This document shows, in pieces, positions 46,416-60,629 of a stretch of 63,414 nucleotides of DNA. Within the stretch, counting starts at the first letter, position 1. Each line of letters opens with the position of its first letter. Source of the DNA: Candidatus Thermoflexus tengchongensis (GTDB lineage Bacteria; Chloroflexota; Anaerolineae; Thermoflexales; Thermoflexaceae); NCBI GenBank assembly GCA_016842085.1, contig JAEVEX010000022.1, positions 1 through 63,414 on the forward strand, given 5' to 3'. Under the pieces are notes generated by a model, which saw nothing but the letters and a program-made list of their open reading frames with translations, did not search any database and had not been told where the DNA came from. A program made the translations under genes and the position numbers.

Positions 46416-47888
46416 ATGTTCATCCGCTGGTTTGGAAGGGCGCTCGCGCTCATCGGGCTGATGATGATCATCCAGAGTTTGATCTGGATGGGCTATGGGG
46501 CTGCGACGAACCAGCAGTCTGGAAACCCCGCGCGGGGGCTCAATGGGGGTGAGGGGCCTGCGCCCGCCCCATCTTCATGGCCCACGCCCACTCTTCAACC
46601 CACGGGAACGCCGACTCCCACCCCCACGTCTGCGCCCACGTTCACCCCCTTGCCGCCCCCATCGACGCCCACCCCAGCCTTCCCGGCCAGATGGGCGGTC
46701 ACCCCCACCCCTCGCCCCGAGGCCTCTGGGGAAAGCCCGGCGGGGATCCCGGAGCCCCATCCGCCTCTGGCCTTCCCGCCCAGGCGGGTGAACCTGCTGT
46801 TGCTGGGGAGCGATCGACGGCCGGGGGAGCGGATCGGGCGAACAGATACGATCATCTTCGCCTCGATCGATCCGGATGAGCCCTCGGTGCGGTTGCTCAG
46901 CATCCCGCGGGATCTGTGGGTCTACATCCCGGGCTGGGGGTTCAACAAGATCAACACGGCCTATGTCCATGGGGAGCTGGCCCGTTATCCGGGCGGAGGC
47001 TATGGCCTGCTGCAGGACACGCTTCGCTACAATCTGGGGCTGACCGCTCACGGCTATGCCCTGGTGGATTTTGGAGGGATGCGGACGATCATCGACACCC
47101 TGGGGGGTGTGGACGTGAACGTGCGGTGCCCGCTGTATGATGTGTTTCCCGATCCCGACAACCCGGCGATCACCGGGACGCTCTCTTTGCCTGCGCCGGG
47201 CCGCTACCATCTGGATGGCCAGCAGGCCCTGTGGTATATGCGATCCCGGCATTCGACCGGCGATTTCGACCGCTCGCGCCGGCAGCAACAGGTGCTGGAA
47301 GGGTTACTGGATCGGCTGAAGGAGGGGGGATGGCTTTTGCGCATCCCGTCCCTCTGGTCCGGGATCCGTCAGATGGTGCAGACGGATCTGGGGCTGGAGG
47401 AAGTGCTCTGGCTGGCCTCCATCGGGGTGCGTCTGGATCGGAGCCGCATCGCCCGGGGGTGGCTGCATCCGGTTCTGGCCTCGGGGACGATCTCCACCAC
47501 CGCGGAGAACGGGCTGTTTGTTTACCGGCTGACGGAGCAGGCGGATTCCTACCTGGAGCGGTTCCTGCTGGGTCCGTTGCCATCAGAGGCTTCGCCCATT
47601 GCGCGGGTGGAGGTCATCAACGCCAGCGGGAATCCCTTTTATGGGGAGATGGCGGTGGAGCTCCTGCGGGAGGCCGGGTTTCAGGCCGTCCGGATGGTGG
47701 AGGCGGCGCCGGATGGCCGGCCCACGCGGGTGATCGCCACGGACTCGGCTGGATCCTCCGCGGCCGCTTCGGCGCTCCTGCGGGCCTTCCGGCTGCCGGG
47801 GTCTCGCCTCGAGGTTTCCCCCGAGCCGGGCGCGGAAGCCCCCTATCGGGTCTGGCTGGGGGCCGACTTCAACCCGTGCGTCCGATAG
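46416..47888 (+). CDS. LytR-CpsA-Psr (LCP) cell-wall ligase
   Basis: A 490-residue envelope protein. It has an N-terminal membrane anchor (about 8-27), then an extracellular Pro/Thr-rich linker with repeated TPT units (about 55-105), an LCP domain and a C-terminal LytR_C domain. LCP marks are LLLLGSDRRPGERIGRTDTIIFASID (two motifs), LLSIPRDLWVYIPG, NKINTAYVHG and MRSRHSTGDFDRSRRQQQ. LCP proteins transfer polyprenyl-linked glycopolymers to peptidoglycan, so it complements the preceding wall-synthesis cluster. LytR_C begins near IARVEVINASGNP. Confidence 0.92.
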   Translation: MFIRWFGRALALIGLMMIIQSLIWMGYGAATNQQSGNPARGLNGGEGPAPAPSSWPTPTLQPTGTPTPTPTSAPTFTPLPPPSTPTPAFPARWAVTPTPRPEASGESPAGIPEPHPPLAFPPRRVNLLLLGSDRRPGERIGRTDTIIFASIDPDEPSVRLLSIPRDLWVYIPGWGFNKINTAYVHGELARYPGGGYGLLQDTLRYNLGLTAHGYALVDFGGMRTIIDTLGGVDVNVRCPLYDVFPDPDNPAITGTLSLPAPGRYHLDGQQALWYMRSRHSTGDFDRSRRQQQVLEGLLDRLKEGGWLLRIPSLWSGIRQMVQTDLGLEEVLWLASIGVRLDRSRIARGWLHPVLASGTISTTAENGLFVYRLTEQADSYLERFLLGPLPSEASPIARVEVINASGNPFYGEMAVELLREAGFQAVRMVEAAPDGRPTRVIATDSAGSSAAASALLRAFRLPGSRLEVSPEPGAEAPYRVWLGADFNPCVR

Positions 47889-48029
47889 GCCCGCCGGCGC
47901 TCCGGGATCGATCCAGCGATATCTGCGCGAATTCTCCGGTGGGCAAACTCCTTTCAGTCAGGGGTCTTGCCAATCGGGGTCCCTCCATGGTGCCTGGAGC
48001 GCTTTGCAACGCCTCCTCGCCGGTCCTCC

Positions 48030-49343
48030 TCACCGGGCAGGATGTTTTTGTCTGCTTTGGGAAAGCGGATGATCAAGCACCCCCTCACTCCCTACGCCCT
48101 CGACTCGAAGACGTTGGATATGGAGTTTCGTCGCCAGTAACAATGGTGGCCTCGTCATGGCGGCGATCCGGCCAGATGGAGAACGGCCTCCATGGAGTCG
48201 AGATGGAAGAAGGGAGCTGATCAGAGATTCACAAGCCCATGCCCGGACCGACAGGGCTTCGATCCGGACCGGGATTTCTTGAATGATCCGGAAGTCGATC
48301 CGCATCCGCAGCTTCCCGTCCTGAGGACCGTCTCCCTCCCACCCCAGGGCCAGATCGGCATCCGTCGCCAGCAGCTCCGGAAATCCCAGATTTCGCAAGG
48401 CCTCGAAGAAGCGGGCCTCCAGCGCCTTTCGACGCCGGAAGGCCTCCATAACCCGCTCTTCACCGCACTGCGGACAGCTTTGCACGAAGACGCGATCGCG
48501 ACCCCCCAGGGCCGTACGCGCCCGCCGGATGGCGTCCATGGTCAGCCCCCGCGACGGCTCGACGGAACCCAGGGCCTTCAGGCAGATGGCCTGACGGAAT
48601 TTTTTCTTTTCCGGGCTATTCATTCCCTCCGTCCGCAGGAAGGAGCGGATCTCCCCGGCCAGCCGCTCCAGGGCGCTCTCGCCGGCCGGAAGGCGAATGG
48701 GCTCGATCCAGAACCGCGGGGAGCTTCCGCAGCGGCACCATGGCTGATCCCAGATCGTCAGGCGGAAATCCACACCTTCCGGGAGGGGATGCCAGGGGCC
48801 TGGACAAGGGAGGCCCATGAGCTCCGAGAGGGGAAGAGCATGGCGCCATCCTCGGAGATCCTCAATGGATGCCAGGCGAAGGATCCCAACCGGGATCTCT
48901 CTTTTCAGAAGATCCTGGATCTTCCTTTCCTCCGGGGAGTGGCGGACCACGATCTCCAGCGCCAAAAAGGGGCGAGAGGCAACATGGAGCAGGAGATCGG
49001 CCCGCCATGGCCCGATAGCCGCCTCCTCCTTCGGATCCGGGAAGCCGGAGGGCCATCGGATAATGCATCGGCACACGGGGCATATGGAGCTTAGGGAACA
49101 TCCGCGGCGAATGACGTCCGCCGCCGCCGTTTTGGCTATTCGGTGCAGGACGGTTTCACCACTACAGGCCGGGTTTTCAGCTTGATGGGCAAAATGTGGG
49201 CGTCGAACGGATCCGACCCGGAGAAGCATGGGGGCGCCGCACCCCAGGCAGGTGTAGCGCTCCGTTTTATCCCGCTCCTCAGCCCAGCGCAGCCGTCCTT
49301 GAGAATCCAGGGCCACCGGGTACCGGATCCCCGCACGGATCAT
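48030..49343 (-). CDS. CoiA-like predicted nuclease
   Basis: A protein of about 437 residues. The opening resembles CoiA competence proteins: YTCLGCGAPMLLRVGSVRRPHFAH (CxxC at 32-35, PHFAH at 49-53), ETVLHRIAK, then an RADLLL and LALEIVVRHSPEERK pair (D116, E130) like a restriction-type nuclease core. A second Cys pair (CPVCRC) and a third (CPQCGEER) suggest zinc binding. The final 70 or so residues look unlike a folded domain. The start at 49343 is a choice among ATGs at 49343, 49361 and 49442. CoiA acts on DNA during transformation; here the context is a run of nuclease genes. Confidence 0.7.
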   Translation of the reverse strand: MIRAGIRYPVALDSQGRLRWAEERDKTERYTCLGCGAPMLLRVGSVRRPHFAHQAENPACSGETVLHRIAKTAAADVIRRGCSLSSICPVCRCIIRWPSGFPDPKEEAAIGPWRADLLLHVASRPFLALEIVVRHSPEERKIQDLLKREIPVGILRLASIEDLRGWRHALPLSELMGLPCPGPWHPLPEGVDFRLTIWDQPWCRCGSSPRFWIEPIRLPAGESALERLAGEIRSFLRTEGMNSPEKKKFRQAICLKALGSVEPSRGLTMDAIRRARTALGGRDRVFVQSCPQCGEERVMEAFRRRKALEARFFEALRNLGFPELLATDADLALGWEGDGPQDGKLRMRIDFRIIQEIPVRIEALSVRAWACESLISSLLPSRLHGGRSPSGRIAAMTRPPLLLATKLHIQRLRVEGVGSEGVLDHPLSQSRQKHPAR

Positions 49344-49532
49344 TCGCGATCCTGTCTCCATCGAATGCAAGCTCGCATGGCGCAAGGCGAAGCCACCCCC
49401 TCCCTGTTCTGACAAGAGCCGCTTCCTGCCTTCAATATCCATCTTTTATCGCTGAGGATTTCCCTCAGGAATTCGCTGGGGAATTCCTGCCATGCAGCTT
49501 CAGCCAGCCCAAGGGTCTGGACAGTTTCTGAT

Positions 49533-50570
49533 TTACATGCCAGGGAGAGCGGGGAGCTCCTCTCGGGAAAGGGGCGGGAAAGCCCTCCGGGATGGATGGA
49601 GGTCCCCGATCAGGAGGCCTTCTATCCGCCCCAGCATTTGATTTATGTCCTCGTGGATTTGCCAGTAGGCTTCCTTGCGCTCCCTCCATATTCGAACATG
49701 ACTTTTCATTTCATCGCCCAGCATTCGCCACAGATTTCTCATTCGCCGATCTACATGTTGTGCCAGATTGCGAAAATCTGGACTCTGAAGATATTCGTAA
49801 AGACGCGCCAGCGCTTCTTCACGCCGCTGACCACGCATCTGGAGGATGGCCATGCGAATCAGCATGTCGCGGAGCAGGATAACCACAATCTGAACCGAGT
49901 GAGGCTGAACGACGATCACTTCATTCTCAACGATGAAAGGTTGACGGCGGGGCATGGTTCGGGAAACCAGAACAGCGAAATCCGCCTTCCGTTGGCGCTT
50001 GGCCTCCATGGTCTGGCGGATATAATCTTGCTTGAACTCCCGAGTATCCTTACACTCGTATACAATCCGCCCGATCACAGCCCCATCCCGGCAAACCTCA
50101 TGAAATATATCACCACCTTTCCCGGTATGCGTGATGCGATCGTCTGGGAACCATGTCCGCAGCGCTTCGAATAGCTTCTTCTCTTCTATGAGTCCTTGCT
50201 CCTGAGGTAAGGCAATCCGGAGTCTTCGATTTTCCTCCCGGAGCCTTTGGATTTCCTCCTGCAGGCGCTGGAGCTGCTGCTCTCGGCGTTCCCGCTCGCG
50301 CTTCTTTGCCTCCCGGAGCAGGGCACGCGCTTGGCGACGTGCTTCCTCCTCGATTTTTCGTTCCCACCTCTTGCGCTCCTCTTGAAGGCGCTGCTGCCAC
50401 TGCTGTTCCAGCTGTTTCTTCTCAGTGCGTAGCTTTTGAGCCTCCTCGCGCAGACGCTGCAAATGCCTCCGATGCTCCTGCCAGAGCCCGAGCGCTCTCA
50501 GATAACGTTCCCGGGAAAGAGGGGAGCGGCAAACTGGACACCGATAGCGTTCCTTATTAACAATTCTCAT
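49533..50570 (-). CDS. DUF2130 protein: CxxC, coiled coil, nuclease-like core
   Basis: A 345-residue protein. Residues 9-16 hold a single CPVC pair. Residues about 30-120 form a long, very charged coiled coil (Glu/Arg/Gln heptads). A DUF2130 domain follows with FPDDRITHTGKGGD (D154) and VYECKDTREFKQDY (E172-x-K174), matching a PD-(D/E)XK arrangement, then ADFAVLVS. AAGGAGG lies right before the ATG. The third base is less often G or C than in nearby genes, suggesting transfer. It is transcribed with the EVE-nuclease gene, 152 bp upstream. Confidence 0.85.
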   Translation of the reverse strand: MRIVNKERYRCPVCRSPLSRERYLRALGLWQEHRRHLQRLREEAQKLRTEKKQLEQQWQQRLQEERKRWERKIEEEARRQARALLREAKKRERERREQQLQRLQEEIQRLREENRRLRIALPQEQGLIEEKKLFEALRTWFPDDRITHTGKGGDIFHEVCRDGAVIGRIVYECKDTREFKQDYIRQTMEAKRQRKADFAVLVSRTMPRRQPFIVENEVIVVQPHSVQIVVILLRDMLIRMAILQMRGQRREEALARLYEYLQSPDFRNLAQHVDRRMRNLWRMLGDEMKSHVRIWRERKEAYWQIHEDINQMLGRIEGLLIGDLHPSRRAFPPLSREELPALPGM

Positions 50571-50722
50571 GGGATCCTCCTTAGGCTGTATTTAATGGTG
50601 GTTGATCCTATTAAATTAGCACAGAGAGCAGGACAACTCCACAGCATAATGCATACTCGTGGGATGCCTACTTCAGGCATGCTTGGACAGCGATCTTGAG
50701 CCCGACTATGTCACTGCCTATC

Positions 50723-51736
50723 TTAGGTAACCCGCTCGAAGTGGGGTCTTCTCCCCTCGGGACGCCAGATCCAGATCTCAAGCGCCTCACATTTCTCCTC
50801 CCTCACAACGGCTTCCATGGCAGCCCTTGCTTCACGGGAGATTTTCCGAACTACCCAGACAGGCCGGATGAAATCGTGGGGAGTAGCCACATAGTCCCGG
50901 AGCCACCAGATGTAACGACGCATTTGCTCTGCGTCCCTAGCCTCCCCAGGTCGAGCCTTCAATTCCACCACACGGAAGCGCCGCTGCCCTTCCATCTCCT
51001 CAAGAATTAGCAGATCCATCCGCTGCATCCCCATCCCGGCATACACCTCATTGGCGAACCAGATGGGATCGCCTGTCAGCTCCCGCAGAGACGGATCCCG
51101 TCCAATATGCCAAGCCATCCAGGCCTGAAGATGCTTTTCTCCACGCCGGATATCAATCTGATCCAGTGGGGAGTTCAAATTCCCTGTATAAGGGCGCGCT
51201 GGGACTCCCTGTTCCCACCGGATCTCTCCTTCCTGCCAGGTCAAGCGACCGGTCCCTATCAGTTTGAGGGGGCCATTTGGGTTGGCAGCCCTCAATAGCT
51301 GCCGCATACTCTCGAACTCATAAGGAAAAAGGTAGGAGCATCCGCGCTCTCCCTTCAGCTTCCGGTAAACCAGGCTCCAAAGGATATCCCGGCTATAGAG
51401 AGGGAGGCGATCAATGGCTTCCCATTCAGTGACCGGCCGAGGATAAATTTCATCGGGCTCGATGCGGACTCGATAGATGAGAGGGAGCCCCAGCTCTGCC
51501 TGCAGCCATCCATTTGGAGGCTCCACAAAGGGCTCGGATGCAATGCGGAAAATCCCATAGAATCCATAATCCTGCAGATAAAACAGCACCGGATCTCCTG
51601 GACGCGTCCGGGCGATGTCAGCCAGCAGACCGATGTGCTGGGCCTGTAGCTTTCCAGGCGTGGTTCCGGCGAATTGAAATTCCAGATGGAGCGGGAAAGT
51701 TTTCGTGTTGACAATGAACACATGGGGAGTAGACAT
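50723..51736 (-). CDS. EVE-like domain fused to a PD-(D/E)XK nuclease
   Basis: A 337-residue protein. The N-terminal part (about 1-110) resembles an EVE/PUA-like modified-base reader: HVFIVNTKTFPLHLEF, then RPGDPVLFYLQDYGFYGIFRI (46-64), then YRVRIEPDEIYP. The C-terminal part (about 195-285) is a NucS-like PD-(D/E)XK core: E200, E230, RMDLLILEE (D241), VVELK (E258-x-K260) and EQMRRYIWWL (Q271, Y275). It begins 21 bp after the methyltransferase stop, so the two form a likely operon. A restriction or modified-DNA-sensing enzyme is inferred. Domain calls are by pattern, not by search. Confidence 0.75.
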   Translation of the reverse strand: MSTPHVFIVNTKTFPLHLEFQFAGTTPGKLQAQHIGLLADIARTRPGDPVLFYLQDYGFYGIFRIASEPFVEPPNGWLQAELGLPLIYRVRIEPDEIYPRPVTEWEAIDRLPLYSRDILWSLVYRKLKGERGCSYLFPYEFESMRQLLRAANPNGPLKLIGTGRLTWQEGEIRWEQGVPARPYTGNLNSPLDQIDIRRGEKHLQAWMAWHIGRDPSLRELTGDPIWFANEVYAGMGMQRMDLLILEEMEGQRRFRVVELKARPGEARDAEQMRRYIWWLRDYVATPHDFIRPVWVVRKISREARAAMEAVVREEKCEALEIWIWRPEGRRPHFERVT

Positions 51737-51757
51737 TGGGTTTCACCTTTCCGATTT

Positions 51758-52564
51758 CTACTTTCGTTCAAAAAACATAACATATTCATGCTTGAAGATG
51801 TAAAAATTCCCCTTGAGGGCACGATACCGCCACAGGTGATACTGGCCCCGTTTGCCCCGGTTCTCCTGGATGTCTTTGACGCAGATGCTCTTGAGGCGGA
51901 ACCCGTGCCGCAGCACCCGTTCCATGGTCCGGAAGCCCAGGGGCACCCATTCCCCCCGCGTGTATTTATCCCCGATCACCAGCACCAGAAACCGTCCCCG
52001 ATCCAGGAGAGGGGCGAAATTTTCCACCACCCGCTCAAAGGCCTCGTAGAAGGCCTCCTCCGTGGGTGCGTTAGAGAGATCGCGGGGGTCGGCGCTGAAC
52101 CGGATGATGTCGTGATAGGGGGGATGGAGGATCAGCAGCTGGGCGCCGGAGAATCCCCAGCGGGCCATCGTCTCCCGGACGCGCTCGACGGTGGCGGGAT
52201 CGGTGCTATCTCCGATCTGGAGCTCCGTCTGAACCCCATAGGGGTTCTCCTCCAGGCCGATGAGCCAGCGGGCCCGCTCGGCCACCCCGGGGACCAGCTC
52301 GATGCCGATGGCGAAGCGGCCCAGCCGTTTCGCCTCGATGAGGGTGGTGCCCAGCCCGGCGAAGGGATCGAGGACCAGCTCCCCGCGACGGGTGAAACGC
52401 CGCATGGCCTGGTAGGGGATCTGGGGGACGAAGTTCCCCCAGTATTCCGGGGTGTGCATCCCGTGGTTGGCCCGGGGGCCCAGCAGCCACAGACTGTCGG
52501 TGAGGATGTCCTCGTATTCCTCCCAGCGCTCCAGGTCCAGATCGTGGATCGCCATCGTTTTCAT
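51758..52564 (-). CDS. Site-specific DNA methyltransferase (N4/N6 type)
   Basis: A 268-residue SAM-dependent amino-methyltransferase. The SAM site VLDPFAGLGTTLIEAKRLGRFAIGIE (66-90, two motifs) comes before the catalytic loop LLILHPPYHDIIRFS (147-152), where His takes the place of the usual D/N/S of (D/N/S)PPY. LLDRGRFLVLVIGDKYTRGEWVPLG follows. The recognition sequence is unknown. GAGGAAAG lies just before the ATG. It is followed directly by the EVE-nuclease gene; the pair fits a restriction-modification layout. Base composition is more GC-rich than in the two downstream genes. Confidence 0.88.
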   Translation of the reverse strand: MKTMAIHDLDLERWEEYEDILTDSLWLLGPRANHGMHTPEYWGNFVPQIPYQAMRRFTRRGELVLDPFAGLGTTLIEAKRLGRFAIGIELVPGVAERARWLIGLEENPYGVQTELQIGDSTDPATVERVRETMARWGFSGAQLLILHPPYHDIIRFSADPRDLSNAPTEEAFYEAFERVVENFAPLLDRGRFLVLVIGDKYTRGEWVPLGFRTMERVLRHGFRLKSICVKDIQENRGKRGQYHLWRYRALKGNFYIFKHEYVMFFERK

Positions 52565-52798
52565 GGTCTTTCCTCGGTCTGCTCAATTTCATTTTATGGA
52601 TTTTCCTGATTGCCGTCTCCAGGTCCCGCTCGGAGAGCCGGGATGACCGGTATCTACCCTCCACAGCGCGCGGTCCGGAAGCCATGTCCTGGCGACCCCG
52701 GTCTCTTAATTATGGTAAATTCATACTCATGCGGGGGCAAGACCTGAGAAATTCTGTTCGCTCCCCGCGTGGCTCCCGTCGGAGGGACAGACTCTTCC

Positions 52799-53530
52799 TC
52801 ATGGGCTGAGCCGCAAGGTTCCTTCCTCGCCGATCCGTTCCCCACATTCCCGCACATGCACACGGAACGTGATCCCATGGCGGTTTTCCTCCTGATCGAT
52901 CTCTCGCTCCAGCCTGGCGGTCCACCACCTCACCTGCACCCGACCTTCCTGCACCGCCTGGCGCAGCCGCCGCTGCCGATCGTTCAGACCGGATCTTCCG
53001 GTTTTGGCCTCCACCAGCAGGATTTCCACTGCTTCTCCCCCCGGGTCCCGCAGACCGCGGAACACGATCCAGTCCACCGGGCTGCCCAGATAGCGCACAT
53101 CCTCCGGCTCCAGGCCCATGAGGAAGGGGAACGCATGCTCCATGACCTGGCCGCGCTGGACGGCGCCGCTTTGCTTCACCGCCTCGTTCCGAATCTGCTC
53201 CTCTTTCTTCTGAAGCTCCGCGTGGAGTTCCGCTTCCTTCCTCTGGAATTCAGCATAGAGTTCCGCCTCTTTCTTCTGGAACGCCGCATGGAGCTCCGCC
53301 TCTTTCTTCTGGATCTCCGCCTGTGCTTTCTCCCACATACTCCTCTCGATTTCTGCATTATGTTGCGCCTTCCATTGCTCGAATAGCGTCTGAGCCCGGT
53401 CCTGGGCACGGCGTTCCACTTCGCCGCGCAGGTGATGGTAACGGGCATAGAAATAAGCCGCGGTGGCCAGGGCCAGGACGAAGGCAATCAGCACAAGGAA
53501 AATTGCAAAATACAGAATCCCGCTCTCCAT
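52799..53530 (-). CDS. Membrane-anchored Holliday-junction-resolvase-like nuclease
   Basis: A 243-residue protein: a membrane segment (about 5-28), a coiled coil (about 33-118), then a nuclease domain of the archaeal-resolvase-related type with MEHAFPFLMGLEPEDVRYLGSPVDWIVF (D153), LLVEAKTG (E174-x-K176) and LNDRQRRLRQAV. The coiled coil includes three near-perfect 11-residue repeats of the form QKKEAELHAAF at residues 74-106. Membrane tethering of a DNA nuclease is unusual. It sits 38 bp downstream of the beta-CASP gene on the same strand. Confidence 0.87.
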   Translation of the reverse strand: MESGILYFAIFLVLIAFVLALATAAYFYARYHHLRGEVERRAQDRAQTLFEQWKAQHNAEIERSMWEKAQAEIQKKEAELHAAFQKKEAELYAEFQRKEAELHAELQKKEEQIRNEAVKQSGAVQRGQVMEHAFPFLMGLEPEDVRYLGSPVDWIVFRGLRDPGGEAVEILLVEAKTGRSGLNDRQRRLRQAVQEGRVQVRWWTARLEREIDQEENRHGITFRVHVRECGERIGEEGTLRLSP

Positions 53531-53568
53531 CTCTCACCTCCTGTCTGTTTTTCGCTCTCCGGGTCCCA

Positions 53569-55176
53569 TCAGCCTCCGACGGTCCGGAGGGAAGGCTCAA
53601 GGAGGACGAGGGTCTTTTCCCCTTTGAGGAGCGCTCTCCATCGCTCCGGATGCTCCGTGTGCACCGGGAGCAGATAGCGGGGGCGAAGACGGCGGACCAG
53701 CCGGGCCAGATCTTCCTCCGGGGCATGGCCCGAGGTGTGATAGGGATTGTCCACAGCCGCGGGATCCCGGGGAAGCTGCGCCAGATCCTCCGGCAGGAGA
53801 CGGAAGCGGAGGGCTTTCAGCCAGTTGAGGAGCACCCGGAGATCCAGGATCTGCTCTTCATCCGCCCAGTAGCTGTTGCTGAAGATGTAGAGACCCTCCG
53901 GATCCAGACCGCTGTGAAGCCTCAGATCCAGAAGGCGAGGGAGTTCATAGAACCCGAAGGCCAGGAGGAAACTCCCCGGATCCCGGGCCACCTGCTCCAT
54001 CGTCACGTCCTGGGGGCGGAGATGGCTCCAGAGGATCTCCTCCCATCCGGCCATCCGGGCCTTCGGCTCCTGGATCACGCGGATCGCTTTCAGGATCTTC
54101 CGGTATCGGGGGTTTACCTCGGAGAGGCCCCAGAGAAGATAGGCATCCTTCGGCGTTACCACCAGCTCCCGTCCCAGGTCCCGGGCCACCTCGAGACAGG
54201 ATTCCAGACGCTCCAGGTTCCGGGGGGCGAAGTCGACCACGATCGGGACGTGAGGGTGCCGTCGGAGCTCGTCGTGCAGCGCTTCTTTCACCTGGGCCTC
54301 CGTTCGGGTCCTCCCTCTCTGCCCCAGGCGCGTGCCCTCTGCGATCAGGAGGAACACATCCTCTCGCTCCATGGCCTGGAGAAAGGCCCCGGTCCTCTGG
54401 CCATCCCGTCCGTGGAATCGCAGATCCCCGGTGTAAACCACCAGGCCCTCCGGGGTCTCCACTGCGAAGGCCACCGCCCCGGGGACCGAATGATCCACCG
54501 GAAACGCTCGCACCCGGAAACCGCCCACCGTAAAGGGAGGATCCACCGGCTCCCACGGATGGCCTTCCAGCTGCTTTGTCTTCGCGGGGGAGAGCTCGTG
54601 GAACCCTGCGATCTTTCCCCCCAGCGGGCGATAAGGTCGCCGGTGATAGGGGATTCGACCCCCCGTTTCCAGGATGCCTTCCCCTTCCTTTACCTTCCGG
54701 GGGTTGCAATACGTGAGCTCTCCGTCCAGCCCCGCATGGGAGGTGTCCTGCATCGCTTTCAGGATCGCCGATGTCTCGGATGTGGTATAAATGGGTAGAT
54801 CCGTTCGCAGGTAGGCGATCGCCCCGGCGTGATCCAGATGGGCGTGGGAGAGAAGCAGGCCCTGGACATGCCCGGCGTCCGGCGCCTCGTCCAGAAGCCT
54901 TCGCTCCAGCGCCGTGGGGAAGAGCGTATCCTCCGAACCGTCCCGGTAGAGGCCTCTCAGACGGGGGAGAAGGCCCAGGGCGAGCAGATCTCGCAGGCCG
55001 AGGGTGCTCCGGGGGGCGAGGAATTCGGTGAAGTGGGCGTTCCAGCGGGCGAAGGGGCGCCCGAAATCCAGGAGGATCGCCTCTCGCCCGGCCTCCAGGA
55101 GCAGCTGGTTGCCCCCGATCTCTCTCCAGCCGCCGAATACGTGGATGCGCAGGCTCCCGATCCTGAAGGATCTCAT
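53569..55176 (-). CDS. Beta-CASP metallo-beta-lactamase fold nuclease, RNase J-like
   Basis: A 535-residue MBL-fold hydrolase. GGWREIGGNQLLLE starts the fold, LLSHAHLDHAGA gives the HxHxDH zinc site (H111, H113, D115, H116), FPVDHSVPGAVAF and YTGDLRFHG give further ligands, and the beta-CASP part shows VVDFAPRNLERL, SNSYWADEEQ, HTSGHA and LPVHTEHPERW, the last two in the RNase J manner. It probably processes RNA. GAGGAGG 5 bp before the ATG at 55176 fixes the start. It is divergent from smc, with about 200 bp between. Confidence 0.88.
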   Translation of the reverse strand: MRSFRIGSLRIHVFGGWREIGGNQLLLEAGREAILLDFGRPFARWNAHFTEFLAPRSTLGLRDLLALGLLPRLRGLYRDGSEDTLFPTALERRLLDEAPDAGHVQGLLLSHAHLDHAGAIAYLRTDLPIYTTSETSAILKAMQDTSHAGLDGELTYCNPRKVKEGEGILETGGRIPYHRRPYRPLGGKIAGFHELSPAKTKQLEGHPWEPVDPPFTVGGFRVRAFPVDHSVPGAVAFAVETPEGLVVYTGDLRFHGRDGQRTGAFLQAMEREDVFLLIAEGTRLGQRGRTRTEAQVKEALHDELRRHPHVPIVVDFAPRNLERLESCLEVARDLGRELVVTPKDAYLLWGLSEVNPRYRKILKAIRVIQEPKARMAGWEEILWSHLRPQDVTMEQVARDPGSFLLAFGFYELPRLLDLRLHSGLDPEGLYIFSNSYWADEEQILDLRVLLNWLKALRFRLLPEDLAQLPRDPAAVDNPYHTSGHAPEEDLARLVRRLRPRYLLPVHTEHPERWRALLKGEKTLVLLEPSLRTVGG

Positions 55177-55340
55177 CCGGACCTCCTCGCATCGGCTTCC
55201 ACGGGCCTGTCCGACGATTCCCTGGCCTCTTTCTTTCCCATGGCCCCTGGAGCCACCGGGCAAGGGCGGAAAATGCGCTTTGGGCTGGGCCCGTCTGGCC
55301 CTGCAAGCCCGGATAGGCGGTCAACGGCGCAATTCTTCAC

Positions 55341-55346
55341 TATAAT
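55341..55346 (+). promoter_or_regulatory. Consensus -10 box of the smc promoter
   Basis: A perfect TATAAT lies in CACTATAATTAAAAC within an AT-rich patch, 32 bp before the smc start codon. No convincing -35 is seen 16-18 bp upstream. Transcription would start near 55353, giving a short leader. Confidence 0.65.
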
Positions 55347-55378
55347 TAAAACTCGTTTCAGGACTTGCAAGTTGCGGG

Positions 55379-58300
55379 GTGAGCGTTCCGGTGCGACTGA
55401 AGGCGATTGAGCTTCACGGCTTCAAGAGCTTCGCCGATCCCACCCGCCTCGAGTTCCCGGGGCCGGTGACGGCGATCGTGGGCCCCAACGGGAGCGGCAA
55501 AAGCAACATCGCGGAGGCCATCCGCTGGGTCCTCGGGGAACAGAGCCTCTCCACCCTCCGGGTCCGCCGCGGGGAGGATCTGATTTTCGCAGGCAGCGAT
55601 CAGCGACCCCGCGCCGGGATGGCGGAGGTCACCCTGATCTTTGATAACACCGACGGCGAGCTCCCGCTGGAATTCGCGGAGATCGCCCTCACCCGCCGGG
55701 TCTACCGGGATGGGGAAGGCGAATACCTTCTGAATGGGAACCGGGTGCGCCTGCGCGACATCCAGGAGCTCCTGGGGTCCACCCCCCTGGCCCGACGGAC
55801 TTACGCGGTGATCGGGCAGGGGGTGGTGGATGAGGTGCTCCGGATGCGGCCGGAGGAGCGCCGGGCGCTGTTCGAAGAGGCGGCGGGGATCGCCCTCTAC
55901 CGGATGAAGCGGGAGGAGGCGCTGCGACGCCTGGAGGCCACCCGGCAGAACCTGGCCCGGATCCGCGATCTGCTGGCGGAGATCACGCCGCGGATGAACA
56001 GCCTCCGCCGCCAGGCGGAACGAGCCCGCCAGTATGAGGCGCTCCGGTCCGAATTAAAAGCGCAATGGCGCCGCTGGGCGGCCCGCCGGATGGCTCAGCT
56101 CCGGGAGAGCCTGGAGGCTGCCCGCCGGGCTCTTGCAGAGGCGGAGGCTGAACGGGCCCAGCATCAGGCCCGTCAGGCCATCGCCGAACAGCACGCCCTG
56201 GCGATCCGGGAGCGGATCCGCCGTCAGCAGGCGACCCTGGCCGAGCTGGAGGCCGCCCGGGAAAAGCTCCAGCAGGAAGCCGCTGCGATCCGGGAGCAGT
56301 TGCAGGCTGTGGAGGGGGCGCTTCAGGCGCTCGCGGAACAGGAGAAAGCTCGCCGGGAGCGACAGGAGGCCCTCCATGCTCGTCGGAGCGCCCTGGCCTC
56401 CATGCGGGAGGCGCTGGAGGCGGAGCGGGAGGCCCTCGACAGCCAGCTCCAGGCCCTCCGGGAGCGCCGGCAGGAGCTGGAGGCCCTTTACGAGGAGCGG
56501 CGCGCGCGCGCGGAAGACCTGGGCCGGCAGCGGGTGGAGCTTCAGGAAGCCCTGCGCCGGCTGGAGGAAGAGATGGCCCGGATCGCTCGCCGCCAGGCCG
56601 CACTTCAGGAATCCCTTGCGGAACTGGAAACACAAGCTGCCCGGCAAAGCGCGTTGCGAGCCCGCAAGATCCAGGAGCAGATAGATCGGCTGCAGGAGCG
56701 GGAACAGATCCGCGAAGAGCTGCACGCCGTAGCGTCCGCCCTGGAGGAGCTGGAGCGCGAGCGCGCCCGGGTCCGCCCCCAGCTGGACGAAGTCGAGGCC
56801 GAAGTGGCCCGGGCCCGGGCGGCGGCGGCTCAGGCCCGCGCCCAGCTGGATTACTGGCAGGCTTACGCGGAGAACTTCCTTCGTCATTGGGAGGCCCGGG
56901 AAGGCTGGGACGAGGATCTGCAGGCTTTGCTTTCGGCGGGCCTCCCCGGGGTGATGGGTCGATTGATCGACTTCCTGGAGATCGAGCCCGGCTGGGAGAC
57001 GGCCGCGGCCGCGGTGCTGGGGCCATTCCTTCAGGCCCTGGTGGTCCGGGATCCAGCGGCCCTGGAGCGGATCCGCCCCCGGGTTCACCGCAGCCTCCCG
57101 GTGGTGGTCCTGGAGGCCCTGCGCTTCGAGCGAGGGCTTCGAATTCGGGGACGCGCCGGGAAAGGGATTGCGCTCCCGGCTGGAAAACCGGCCATTCCGG
57201 CCCGCCCGGCGATAACGATCCTGCGGGCGCGGGAGCCCCGCCTGCAGGCCTGGCTGGAGCGCCAGCTGGAAGGGATCTGGCTGACGGACACATGGGAGCA
57301 GGCGATCGCGCTCTGGCCCCGGCTGCCCCGCACGGCTCAGGTCCTCACCCGGGAGGGCGAGCGAATCGGCGGGGAGGGGATCCTGTGGATCGGCCGTTAC
57401 ACCGCCCCGGAGGTGGTGTGGCTGGCCCAGGAGCAGGTGTGGCGGTCGCTTCCGGAACAGCTTGAAGCGGCCCGGCAGGCCTCCCGTCAGGCCGAAGAGG
57501 TCCTCCAGGCGAGCCTGGCCCGCTGGAAGCAGGTCCATGAGGAGTGGACGGCCCTGGAGGAAGCGTATCGGGCCGCCGTGGCCCGTCGGGAGGAGCTGCA
57601 GCGTCGAATCCACGGGCTGGAAGAGGAGCTTCAGGACATCGCCCGATCGTTGCAATCGCTGGAGCGCGAGATCGCGGATGGGGATCCGCAACGGGCGCAG
57701 ATGGAGGCGGAACACGAGGAGCTGGAGCGCCGCCTGGGATCCCTTCATGAGGAGCAGCGGGCCCTGGAGGCCGCACGGGAGGAGATCGACCGGGCGATCG
57801 CCGCGCTGGGTCTCGAGCGGATCGAGGCGGATCTGACCCGCCTGCGGACGGAGGAACGGTTACTGGAGGAGCAGCGCCGTCGGGTGGAGGAGATGATCGC
57901 CCAGCACGAGGAAGCCCTTCGGGCGCTGGAAACCGAGGAGGCGATGTTCTCGCTGGAAGCCGATGATTCCCTGCGCGCGGCCCTGGAGGCCGAGCAGGAG
58001 CCGTTGCAGCGTCTGCACCATGAGCTCACGGCCCATCTGCAGGAGACGGAAGCCCGACGGGCTCAGGAGATGGCGGCGCTTCTGGCAGCCGAATCGGAAT
58101 TTGAAGAGGCATGGAAACAGGTGGAGCAGCTCCGGGAAGCCGGCAGGTCGCTGGAGGAGCGGGTTCACGCCGCCCGGCTGGAGGTGGTGCGATGGGAGGG
58201 AGAGGTCCACGCCTTCGAACAGGCTCTCCGGGAGGAGTGGCGTCACCTGGATGATGGGGAGATGGATCTGGAGGCGTGGATCCGGGAGGCCGGGGCGGTG

Positions 58301-58975
58301 GAGCCTCTGGAGGCCCTGGAAGCCCGGGTGGAATCCCTCCGTCAGGCGCTGCGACGCCTGGGGCCGATCAACCCGGAGGCGGCGTCCGAATACGCCGCGT
58401 TGCAGGAACGCCATGCGTTCCTGACGTCCCAGATCGCGGATCTGGAGGCGGCGGCGGCTTCCTTCCAGCAGACGGTCGCGGCGCTGGATCAGCAGATGCA
58501 GCGGGCGTTTATGGAGACCTTCCGGGCGGCGGGCCGCGCCTTCAAGGAGACGTTCGTCGAGCTGTTCGGAGGGGGCAACGCCCGCCTGACGCTCACCGAG
58601 GCGGAAAGCTGGGATCAGGCCGGGGTGGAGATCTTCGTGCGGGTTCCCGGGAAGCGGACCCAGAGCCTGATGATGCTCTCCGGAGGGGAGAAGGCCCTGA
58701 CCGCTACGGCCCTGATCTTTGCCCTGCTGAAAGTCCGCCCTTCGCCCTTTGTGGTCCTGGACGAGGCGGACGCGGCGCTGGATGAGGCGAACATCGGGCG
58801 GTTTCGGGAGATGATCCGCCGGCTTTCCGGGCGAACCCAGTTCATCCTCATCACCCACAACCGGGGCACCGTGGAGGCCGCCGATGTCCTGTATGGGGTC
58901 ACCCTGCGGCCGGATGGCACCTCCCAGGTCCTCAGCCTGCGGCTGGAGGAGGCGGAGCGGATGATGGCGAAATGA
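55379..58975 (+). CDS. smc: Chromosome segregation protein SMC
   Basis: A 1198-residue condensin ATPase that compacts and aligns chromosomes with ScpA and ScpB. The N-terminal head has FKSFADPTRLEF and GPNGSGKSN (Walker A, 35-43). Long Glu/Arg/Ala-rich coiled coils (about 165-500 and 690-1010) flank a hinge (about 505-660, with GVMGRLIDFLEIEPGWETAAAAVLG in two parts). The C-terminal head has MMLSGGEKALTATA (signature) and FVVLDEADAALDEANI (Walker B), then ILITHNRGT. The start is GTG at 55379; the Shine-Dalgarno site is weak. scpA and scpB are not in the window. Confidence 0.97.
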   Translation: MSVPVRLKAIELHGFKSFADPTRLEFPGPVTAIVGPNGSGKSNIAEAIRWVLGEQSLSTLRVRRGEDLIFAGSDQRPRAGMAEVTLIFDNTDGELPLEFAEIALTRRVYRDGEGEYLLNGNRVRLRDIQELLGSTPLARRTYAVIGQGVVDEVLRMRPEERRALFEEAAGIALYRMKREEALRRLEATRQNLARIRDLLAEITPRMNSLRRQAERARQYEALRSELKAQWRRWAARRMAQLRESLEAARRALAEAEAERAQHQARQAIAEQHALAIRERIRRQQATLAELEAAREKLQQEAAAIREQLQAVEGALQALAEQEKARRERQEALHARRSALASMREALEAEREALDSQLQALRERRQELEALYEERRARAEDLGRQRVELQEALRRLEEEMARIARRQAALQESLAELETQAARQSALRARKIQEQIDRLQEREQIREELHAVASALEELERERARVRPQLDEVEAEVARARAAAAQARAQLDYWQAYAENFLRHWEAREGWDEDLQALLSAGLPGVMGRLIDFLEIEPGWETAAAAVLGPFLQALVVRDPAALERIRPRVHRSLPVVVLEALRFERGLRIRGRAGKGIALPAGKPAIPARPAITILRAREPRLQAWLERQLEGIWLTDTWEQAIALWPRLPRTAQVLTREGERIGGEGILWIGRYTAPEVVWLAQEQVWRSLPEQLEAARQASRQAEEVLQASLARWKQVHEEWTALEEAYRAAVARREELQRRIHGLEEELQDIARSLQSLEREIADGDPQRAQMEAEHEELERRLGSLHEEQRALEAAREEIDRAIAALGLERIEADLTRLRTEERLLEEQRRRVEEMIAQHEEALRALETEEAMFSLEADDSLRAALEAEQEPLQRLHHELTAHLQETEARRAQEMAALLAAESEFEEAWKQVEQLREAGRSLEERVHAARLEVVRWEGEVHAFEQALREEWRHLDDGEMDLEAWIREAGAVEPLEALEARVESLRQALRRLGPINPEAASEYAALQERHAFLTSQIADLEAAAASFQQTVAALDQQMQRAFMETFRAAGRAFKETFVELFGGGNARLTLTEAESWDQAGVEIFVRVPGKRTQSLMMLSGGEKALTATALIFALLKVRPSPFVVLDEADAALDEANIGRFREMIRRLSGRTQFILITHNRGTVEAADVLYGVTLRPDGTSQVLSLRLEEAERMMAK

Positions 58976-59066
58976 GGGCGGTTTTCCCTCGGGGGCCGGG
59001 CGAGGCGCCTTTCGTGCCCTGCTCAGCCCCCCTAAGATCTTCCCATTGGCCCAAAAGGCTCCAGGG

Positions 59067-59207
59067 AAAGATAAGACCCTCGATCAGGGCCTGAGCAGCC
59101 AGCATTCGGTCAAAAGGATCCCGGTGAGAGGCAGGCAATTGTCCTGCCATCAAACCATGCTCAACTATAGCCTGTATAGCCTGCGCGACTCCCCGCGGGT
59201 GGATCAT
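59067..59207 (-). pseudogene. Relic of a VapC-type PIN toxin gene (3' part)
   Basis: The minus-strand frame reads AIVEHGLMAGQLPASHRD followed by PFDRMLAAQALIEGL, matching the conserved C-terminal PIN-toxin pattern (H-x-DPFDRxLxAQA-xxEG). The N-terminal half with the first catalytic Asp is missing, and the part that should hold the last Asp (T-x-D) is replaced by unrelated sequence. No vapB is adjacent. The relic lies between smc and the tnpB element, whose arrival may have destroyed the gene. Confidence 0.65.
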
Positions 59208-59268
59208 CCAGAGAAAGCTCGCACTTTCTATTGCTGGAAATCTACACCGCCCGGCCTGGATCCAGGGG

Positions 59269-59297
59269 TTGACAACAGCTGCCCATTTTGTTATCTT
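59269..59297 (+). promoter_or_regulatory. Promoter of tnpB
   Basis: A perfect TTGACA (59269-59274) is followed after 17 bp by TATCTT (59292-59297; TTATCT one base earlier is an alternative). It lies in an AT-rich patch 70 bp upstream of the tnpB start codon. Confidence 0.65.
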
Positions 59298-59366
59298 ACA
59301 TTACAACTCTTGATCATCCCCCACGGCCATGAAATCCAGCGGGCTCTGGAGGTCAGAGGTCATCGG

Positions 59367-60629
59367 ATGCGAGTCGTCCAGGCCTTCCGATTCGAGCTGG
59401 ATCCGAACGTAGCGCAGCGCGTGTCGCTGGCCCGGCACGTGGGGGCCGCTCGCTTTGCCTACAATTGGGGTCTGTCCCGCTGCCTGGAGGCGCTGGAGCA
59501 AGGCCTGCCCCTTCCCTCCGCCGCCCAGCTCCACAAGGCGTGGAACGTCTGGAAGCGAGAGAACGCTCCCTGGTGGGTGGAGGTGTCCAAGTGCGCCCCT
59601 CAGGAAGCTTTCCGGGATCTGGAGCGGGCTTTTCGCAACTGGCGGCAGGGCCGGGCGGGAAGGCCTCGCTTCAAGCGCAAGAAAAGCCTGGAGGACAACA
59701 AGGCCCGCCTGACGGGCTCCATTCGGGTCACTCCCCGCCACGTGCAGCTTCCCCGCATTGGGAAAGTGCGCACGAAAGAGCGGACAGACAAGCTGCTGGA
59801 GCTTCTTCAGGCCAGGAAAGCTCGTATCCTCTCTGCAACGATCGCCCGGGAGGCCGATCGCTGGTTTGTCAGCCTCACCTGTGAGGTGGAGCGGCCTGAT
59901 CCCATTCCCCGTGTTCCCCAGGACGACGACGTGGTAGGCGTGGATCTGGGGCTGATGTCCTTCCTGGTGCTGTCCGATGGAACGTGCATCGAAGCCCCGA
60001 AGCCGCTGTCCCGGGGGCTGCGCTTATTGCGCCGTCGTTCCCGACAGCTCTCCCGCAAGCGGAAGGGATCGAGGAACCATCGTAAGGCCTCTCTTCGCCT
60101 GGCCAAACTTCACCGACGGATCAAGAACATCCGGCGGGACTTCCTTCACCAGGTCACCACGGCGCTGGCGAAAACCAAGTCGGTGATCGTGGTGGAGGAT
60201 CTTTCCGTGAAGGCTTTGGCTCGTGGACGTCTTTCCCGTTCTGTTGCGGATGCGGGCTGGGGGATGTTCCGCCGGATGCTGGAATACAAGGGCCGCTGGT
60301 ATGGCGCACGGCTTATGATCGCGCCGCGGGATTTTCCGTCCACCCGGCTTTGCTCTCGATGCGGGCATCGGAACGGGAGACTCCCCTTAAGCCAGCGGGT
60401 TTTTCGTTGTGCGGCCTGCGGGCTGGAGATGGATCGGGATCTCAACTCCGCCATCAATCTGCGAAACTATGGGTTGGCCGCTCTCAAAGGCCCTACCGGG
60501 AGTTCCCCGGGAAGTGACGCCTGTGGAGATCCCTCTGGCGGCGGAACGGCCTTCGGGTCGGTCTACGAGCCACGGGTCGATGAAGCAGGAAGTGGCCGGT
60601 CATTCGTTTCACCCCGTGAGGTGAAATAA
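59367..60629 (+). CDS. tnpB: TnpB RNA-guided nuclease of an IS200/IS605-type element
   Basis: A 420-residue TnpB. The N-terminal MRVVQAFRFELDPNVAQR and RHVGAARFAYNWGL are typical. The RuvC residues are D193 (VVGVDLGL), E277 (VIVVEDLS) and D358 (DRDLNSAINL). A zinc knuckle uses C329, C332, C348 and C351. All catalytic residues are intact, so the protein may be active. TnpB proteins cut DNA guided by an RNA made from the element's right end. No tnpA is next to it, so it is an IS1341-like arrangement. The start at 59367 matches the family. Confidence 0.95.
   Translation: MRVVQAFRFELDPNVAQRVSLARHVGAARFAYNWGLSRCLEALEQGLPLPSAAQLHKAWNVWKRENAPWWVEVSKCAPQEAFRDLERAFRNWRQGRAGRPRFKRKKSLEDNKARLTGSIRVTPRHVQLPRIGKVRTKERTDKLLELLQARKARILSATIAREADRWFVSLTCEVERPDPIPRVPQDDDVVGVDLGLMSFLVLSDGTCIEAPKPLSRGLRLLRRRSRQLSRKRKGSRNHRKASLRLAKLHRRIKNIRRDFLHQVTTALAKTKSVIVVEDLSVKALARGRLSRSVADAGWGMFRRMLEYKGRWYGARLMIAPRDFPSTRLCSRCGHRNGRLPLSQRVFRCAACGLEMDRDLNSAINLRNYGLAALKGPTGSSPGSDACGDPSGGGTAFGSVYEPRVDEAGSGRSFVSPREVK
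60607..60626 (+). other. Hairpin at the right end of the tnpB element
   Basis: TTTCACC and GGTGAAA (7-bp stem, loop CCGTGA) overlap the last codons of tnpB. In IS605-type elements such a terminal hairpin marks the right end and belongs to the guide RNA scaffold (omega/re RNA), whose guide lies just beyond. The precise end is not visible from sequence alone. The guide would fall at about 60630-60660, just before the convergent PLD gene. Confidence 0.5.

Follow-up and report, generated by a model that had tools for sequence, protein, structure and literature searches.

The window, i.e., the whole stretch of 63,414 nucleotides of the hot-spring bacterium Candidatus Thermoflexus tengchongensis that was analysed, contains six consecutive minus-strand genes lying between those encoding an LCP and an SMC protein (Table 1). 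All six open reading frames of the original prediction are present at the coordinates it gave, and profile matches bore out the families proposed for four of their products, namely the beta-CASP MBL, Endonuc_Holl, N6_N4_Mtase and DUF2130 proteins. The protein proposed to be of EVE-PD-(D/E)XK type gave only sub-threshold sequence matches, and both of its domains were backed by the predicted structure. Of the proposed CoiA-like nuclease, the CoiA N-terminal domain was recovered; the nuclease part was not, since the match is confined to the N-terminal domain.

Table 1. Features of the six-gene run and of its surroundings in the window
Feature	Position	Strand	Evidence
LCP, flanking gene	46416-47888	+	
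Lineage-specific insertion between LCP and SMC	47889..55378	.	LCP-SMC adjacency in G001-G006
CoiA-N-domain protein	48030..49442	-	Pfam CoiA_N 3.6e-10
DUF2130 coiled-coil protein	49533..50570	-	Pfam 3.9e-24
EVE-PD(D/E)XK nuclease, 337 aa, putative restriction half of core pair	50723..51736	-	Predicted structure, conserved residues
HPPY-motif amino-methyltransferase (m6A or m4C), 268 aa, putative modification half	51758..52564	-	Pfam N6_N4_Mtase 1.2e-14
Endonuc_Holl (PF10107), Holliday-resolvase-like protein, N-terminal hydrophobic helix	52799..53530	-	Pfam 1e-32, domain preceded by hydrophobic stretch
RNase J-like beta-CASP MBL protein	53569..55176	-	RMMBL 1.3e-7
SMC, flanking gene	55379-58975	+	
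IS605 OrfB/TnpB-type gene, immediately following SMC	59046-60629		

The MBL protein also matched an RNase J subfamily model (2.9e-33), yet far under the cut-off of that model, and the methyltransferase (MTase) matched the PADLOC type II MTase model (MTase_II) at 1.3e-105. The intergenic gaps, read from the sequence, are of 38 bp between the MBL and Endonuc_Holl genes, 234 bp between the latter and the MTase, 21 bp between the MTase and the nuclease, 152 bp between the nuclease and DUF2130, and 90 bp between DUF2130 and the CoiA-N gene. GC3 is uneven across the run (0.60 in DUF2130, 0.61 in the nuclease and 0.83 in the MTase), and a promoter and terminator scan for signals of a single operon yielded nothing clearly exceeding shuffled sequences. 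A NYN gene is also found among the flanks.

The LCP-SMC site and the distribution of the six genes

In six other Thermoflexus genomes (G001-G006) LCP and SMC are separated by ~25-320 bp with no gene between them, and the six-gene run is an insertion specific to the lineage of the window. Homology to the sister genome, 'Ca. T. japonica' HRbin22 (G008), stops at 47923 on the left side and resumes at 55375 on the right. There, LCP is followed by the MTase gene up to the contig end and, on a separate contig, an Endonuc_Holl gene and a GmrSD-type gene precede SMC; these MTase and Endonuc_Holl genes are the only two of the six window genes occupying the site in G008, where they lie beside other genes. 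As the restriction-type genes found at this position differ between the window and G008, the site is variable in the lineage. The G008 site falls where contigs L031 and L178 end; the GmrSD-type gene lies at L178:512-2203, and pieces of a thermonuclease-like gene, judged by eye, span the gap between the two contigs. The ends of the insertion share no direct or inverted repeat longer than 9 bp, and a search for a mobile vehicle among the PLSDB plasmids, the INPHARED phages and IMG/VR detected no relative of the nuclease.

Comparison with the eight other Thermoflexus genomes gave six different distributions for the six genes. The MTase is present in six of the eight with 89-94% identity, and hence in 7 of 9 when that of the window is counted, while the nuclease was found in only one of them (G005), where it is broken. 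No convincing copy of DUF2130 was detected among these congeners, a partial match (9e-4) lying in a long open frame, and the CoiA-N protein is represented by a 61-aa fragment in a single congener. For the Endonuc_Holl gene, G008 has a close copy (G008:C2, beside SMC, ~70-77% identity) and G003 a partial and more divergent one; beyond its presence at the same site in G008, this gene is not tied to the MTase-nuclease pair. Orthologues of the MBL protein with 73-75% identity are encoded elsewhere in the genome in three congeners, that of G004 being ~104 kb from the MTase.

The original prediction regarded the six genes as a candidate defence island. As a unit, this island is rejected on the gene distribution, relatives carrying the genes singly, elsewhere or not at all, and on the empty site, no gene separating LCP from SMC in six congeners. 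That all six genes work jointly as one undescribed defence system is extremely improbable: they are co-directional, nuclease-rich and inserted at a single site, but no relative with the full set was found, their distributions are six different ones and their composition is uneven, with GC3 ranging from 0.60 to 0.83. Since the genes are scattered among relatives, which the prediction itself had named as the mark of a coincidence of order, the six-gene order is considered coincidental. The island thus reduces to one lineage-specific insertion site whose restriction-type genes differ between the window and its sister genome, and the window illustrates how separately inserted single genes can add up to a run rich in nucleases. 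A catalogued PADLOC system was also considered and rejected, as a convincing match was obtained for the MTase only and none for the nuclease; weak matches to LmuB, ZorA and DruB resemble coiled-coil or short-domain matches. A literature search on DUF2130 yielded nothing useful.

The nuclease and its pairing with methyltransferases

At the sequence level, the nuclease matched the EVE (0.038) and NucS_C (0.0052) profiles below threshold. An AlphaFold model built from three sequences reached a pLDDT of 77.7 in the best of five models, the remaining four giving 45-51. In this predicted structure, residues 2-149 resemble the EVE protein PH1033 (Z 13.8) and the EVE domain also aligned with VcaM4I (Z 12.7 over 137 residues), whereas residues 199-327 resemble EndoMS/NucS (Z 10.4). 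A profile made from five nuclease sequences concurred (PH1033 6e-5, NucS 0.021). The agreement of sequence and structure on both domains supports a protein with a predicted N-terminal domain of EVE/YTH fold and a predicted C-terminal domain of NucS/EndoMS fold. In addition, the catalytic residues are kept, with E200, D241, E258, K260 and Y275 invariant in 20 of 20 relatives and Q271 conserved in 19, so the active site appears intact.

Relatives of the nuclease were searched for in Chloroflexota and Armatimonadota genomes with the nuclease as query, and the resulting sample is therefore not biased toward the MTase. These searches found relatives beside MTases of the SPPY, DIPY and D12 classes; a further SPPY pair, in G551, comes from genomes selected via the MTase. 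In the tree of 20 nucleases, 11 have an adjacent MTase and 9 do not, and four kinds of amino-methyltransferase are involved. The paired and unpaired states cluster by clade, with 3 changes against 6.9 in shuffles, although near-copies aid this clustering. In the nuclease's own clade all five copies adjoin the MTase, counting the broken copy of G005; in another three clades the partner is an MTase of a different class. Two Armatimonadota genomes and G337 likewise have the MTase gene first, at a distance of -1 to 21 bp from the nuclease. The pair that the original prediction had singled out as a tight core is consequently kept in Armatimonadota and in another Chloroflexota genome, an adjacent and recurrent MTase and nuclease being what is looked for in a type II pair.

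Several of these loci deserve individual description. EVE-PD(D/E)XK relatives adjoin a D12-class adenine methyltransferase at L123:1139-3282 and L125:1345-3388, and an MTase with DIPY replacing the usual motif IV at L185:198-2025 and L183:234-2367. Genome G531 (KatS3mg016) carries both a DIPY pair and an HPPY pair. At the G337 locus (L141:3444-7143), an HPPY MTase, an EVE-PD(D/E)XK nuclease and a protein of 88 aa are accompanied by an HNH protein with a match to a type II nuclease model of PADLOC, which gives two different nucleases at one MTase locus.

The MTase behaves differently from the nuclease. Its HPPY motif is the same in all 49 relatives, which come from Chloroflexota, Armatimonadota, Acidobacteriota and archaea; only five of these relatives have the nuclease beside them, one of the five nucleases being broken, and 26 of 31 MTase-bearing genomes lack any match to the nuclease profile. 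An HNH gene matching the PADLOC type II nuclease model adjoins this MTase family in three genomes, two of Dehalococcoidia and G337. Within Thermoflexus, the dS of the MTase (0.34-0.93) falls within the range of SMC and LCP (0.23-1.04) and its dN/dS is ~0.07-0.10, indicating an old and strongly constrained gene; a recent spread of the MTase within the genus is unsupported by these dS values. Across the genus the MTase gene lies in several different gene contexts, contig ends limiting some of these comparisons, and an intact nuclease adjoins it only in the genome of the window. Its presence in most Thermoflexus genomes, under purifying selection and mostly without a nuclease, is that of a persistent orphan methyltransferase.

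In G005 the MTase is intact and the neighbouring nuclease is interrupted by a 176-bp element (L032:12714-12889) with 13-bp inverted ends, GAGTTACGCAGTT, and shows further lesions, some of which could be assembly errors. The end sequence also occurs once in L040, and a second, degraded copy of an HPPY MTase is found in G005 at L040:9879-10511. No methylome information for Thermoflexus was found.

Probable restriction-modification and competing interpretations

The MTase and the EVE nuclease probably constitute a type II-like restriction-modification pair, in which the amino-methyltransferase with its HPPY motif would mark the host DNA at its own site, and the nuclease would bind DNA through its EVE-fold domain and cleave DNA lacking the mark of the MTase. 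The nuclease would also be a frequently gained and lost component, the MTase persisting as a solitary gene. The cleavage of unmethylated DNA is favoured by an asymmetry, the nuclease of this clade always being beside the MTase and the MTase often being without the nuclease, which is expected from a restriction-modification pair and not from a type IV enzyme. The MTase may protect against this nuclease, which would prefer unmodified DNA, and the pair may serve as an anti-phage defence. Taken as a whole, an insertion of unrelated single genes together with a core type II-like pair whose nuclease cuts unmarked DNA is a rather probable account of the run. It draws on the empty LCP-SMC site and the six distributions, on the recurrent MTase-first order and the conserved catalytic residues, and on the HNH gene beside this MTase family and the broken nuclease next to an intact MTase in G005.

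Several observations argue against this account. Those EVE-fold nucleases that have been characterised cleave modified DNA, as VcaM4I does (PMC7897488), the section on EVE-PD(D/E)XK proteins in PMC7641849 presents them as predicted type IV enzymes, 9 of the 20 nuclease relatives have no adjacent MTase, and the structure derives from three sequences with one good model of five. The first three of these points, together with the closeness of the predicted EVE fold to that of VcaM4I and the joining of predicted reader and nuclease domains in one protein, as type IV enzymes have it, would suit a nuclease that reads a foreign modified base via its EVE domain, the MTase being an independent orphan or a shield of host sites from that reading. 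Such an enzyme requires no MTase, yet an MTase gene immediately precedes the nuclease throughout its own clade, and MTases of other classes accompany its relatives in three more clades; we regard this reading as unlikely. It could also be imagined that the EVE domain reads the mark of the neighbouring MTase, taking it as a signal that turns cleavage off or, as in phage growth limitation, as one that turns it on. The fusion of an EVE-type base-reader fold to a nuclease beside an MTase agrees with this, but none of the results points to binding of the mark in the EVE pocket, and cleavage switched on by the mark would put the methylated host chromosome at risk, making this idea very unlikely. A broader proposal, which we also judge doubtful, is a class of restriction-modification systems with self/non-self discrimination by a base reader, in which the EVE domain would inspect the base modified by the MTase, its occupancy would switch the nuclease, and several shifts would have occurred between paired (restriction-modification) and unpaired (type IV) states with different MTase classes.

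Returning to the favoured type II-like pair, its closest known counterparts each share only part of its features. The EVE-PD(D/E)XK proteins treated by Bell, Wolf and Koonin (2020, PMC7641849) are predicted to be type IV restriction enzymes, and like them the window nuclease has a predicted EVE fold followed by a PD-(D/E)XK nuclease; unlike them, its gene directly adjoins that of an amino-methyltransferase, the section in that paper describing a modification-dependent fusion and making no mention of such pairs. VcaM4I, an EVE-HNH modification-dependent endonuclease cutting 5mC/5hmC DNA (PMC7897488), has a similar N-terminal EVE-fold domain, but its nuclease domain is HNH instead of PD-(D/E)XK. 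With NucS/EndoMS the window protein shares the predicted C-terminal fold and an aligned E-L-K ... Q ... RY stretch, differing in its EVE-like N-terminal domain and in its methyltransferase context. Type II systems with an amino-methyltransferase are likewise small two-gene units whose MTase is often left solitary; unusually for such a probable pair, the nuclease here has a predicted domain of a modified-base-reading fold. Finally, the window MTase resembles the persistent orphan methyltransferases of an archaeal survey (PMC10609329) in being lineage-wide, constrained and mostly without a nuclease, and departs from them in its HPPY motif and in its occasional pairing with two types of nuclease. 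We favour considering the core pair as a variant of restriction-modification, the EVE-PD(D/E)XK architecture being already published and no report of such nucleases paired with MTases, let alone repeatedly, having been found in the open-licence papers searched.

EVE-domain nucleases are currently filed as attackers of modified DNA. That one EVE nuclease family is repeatedly paired with amino-methyltransferases of four kinds suggests that restriction-modification nucleases are among them and, if so, annotation by architecture alone may misassign whether the enzyme cuts modified or unmodified DNA. The clades with and without an MTase offer a natural comparison in which a base-reader fold may serve either logic. 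As a further observation, the window's own genome encodes at L151:3564-10421 (G000:C84) a PD-(D/E)XK protein weakly resembling the C-terminal domain of the nuclease, which sits within an apparent type I restriction locus.
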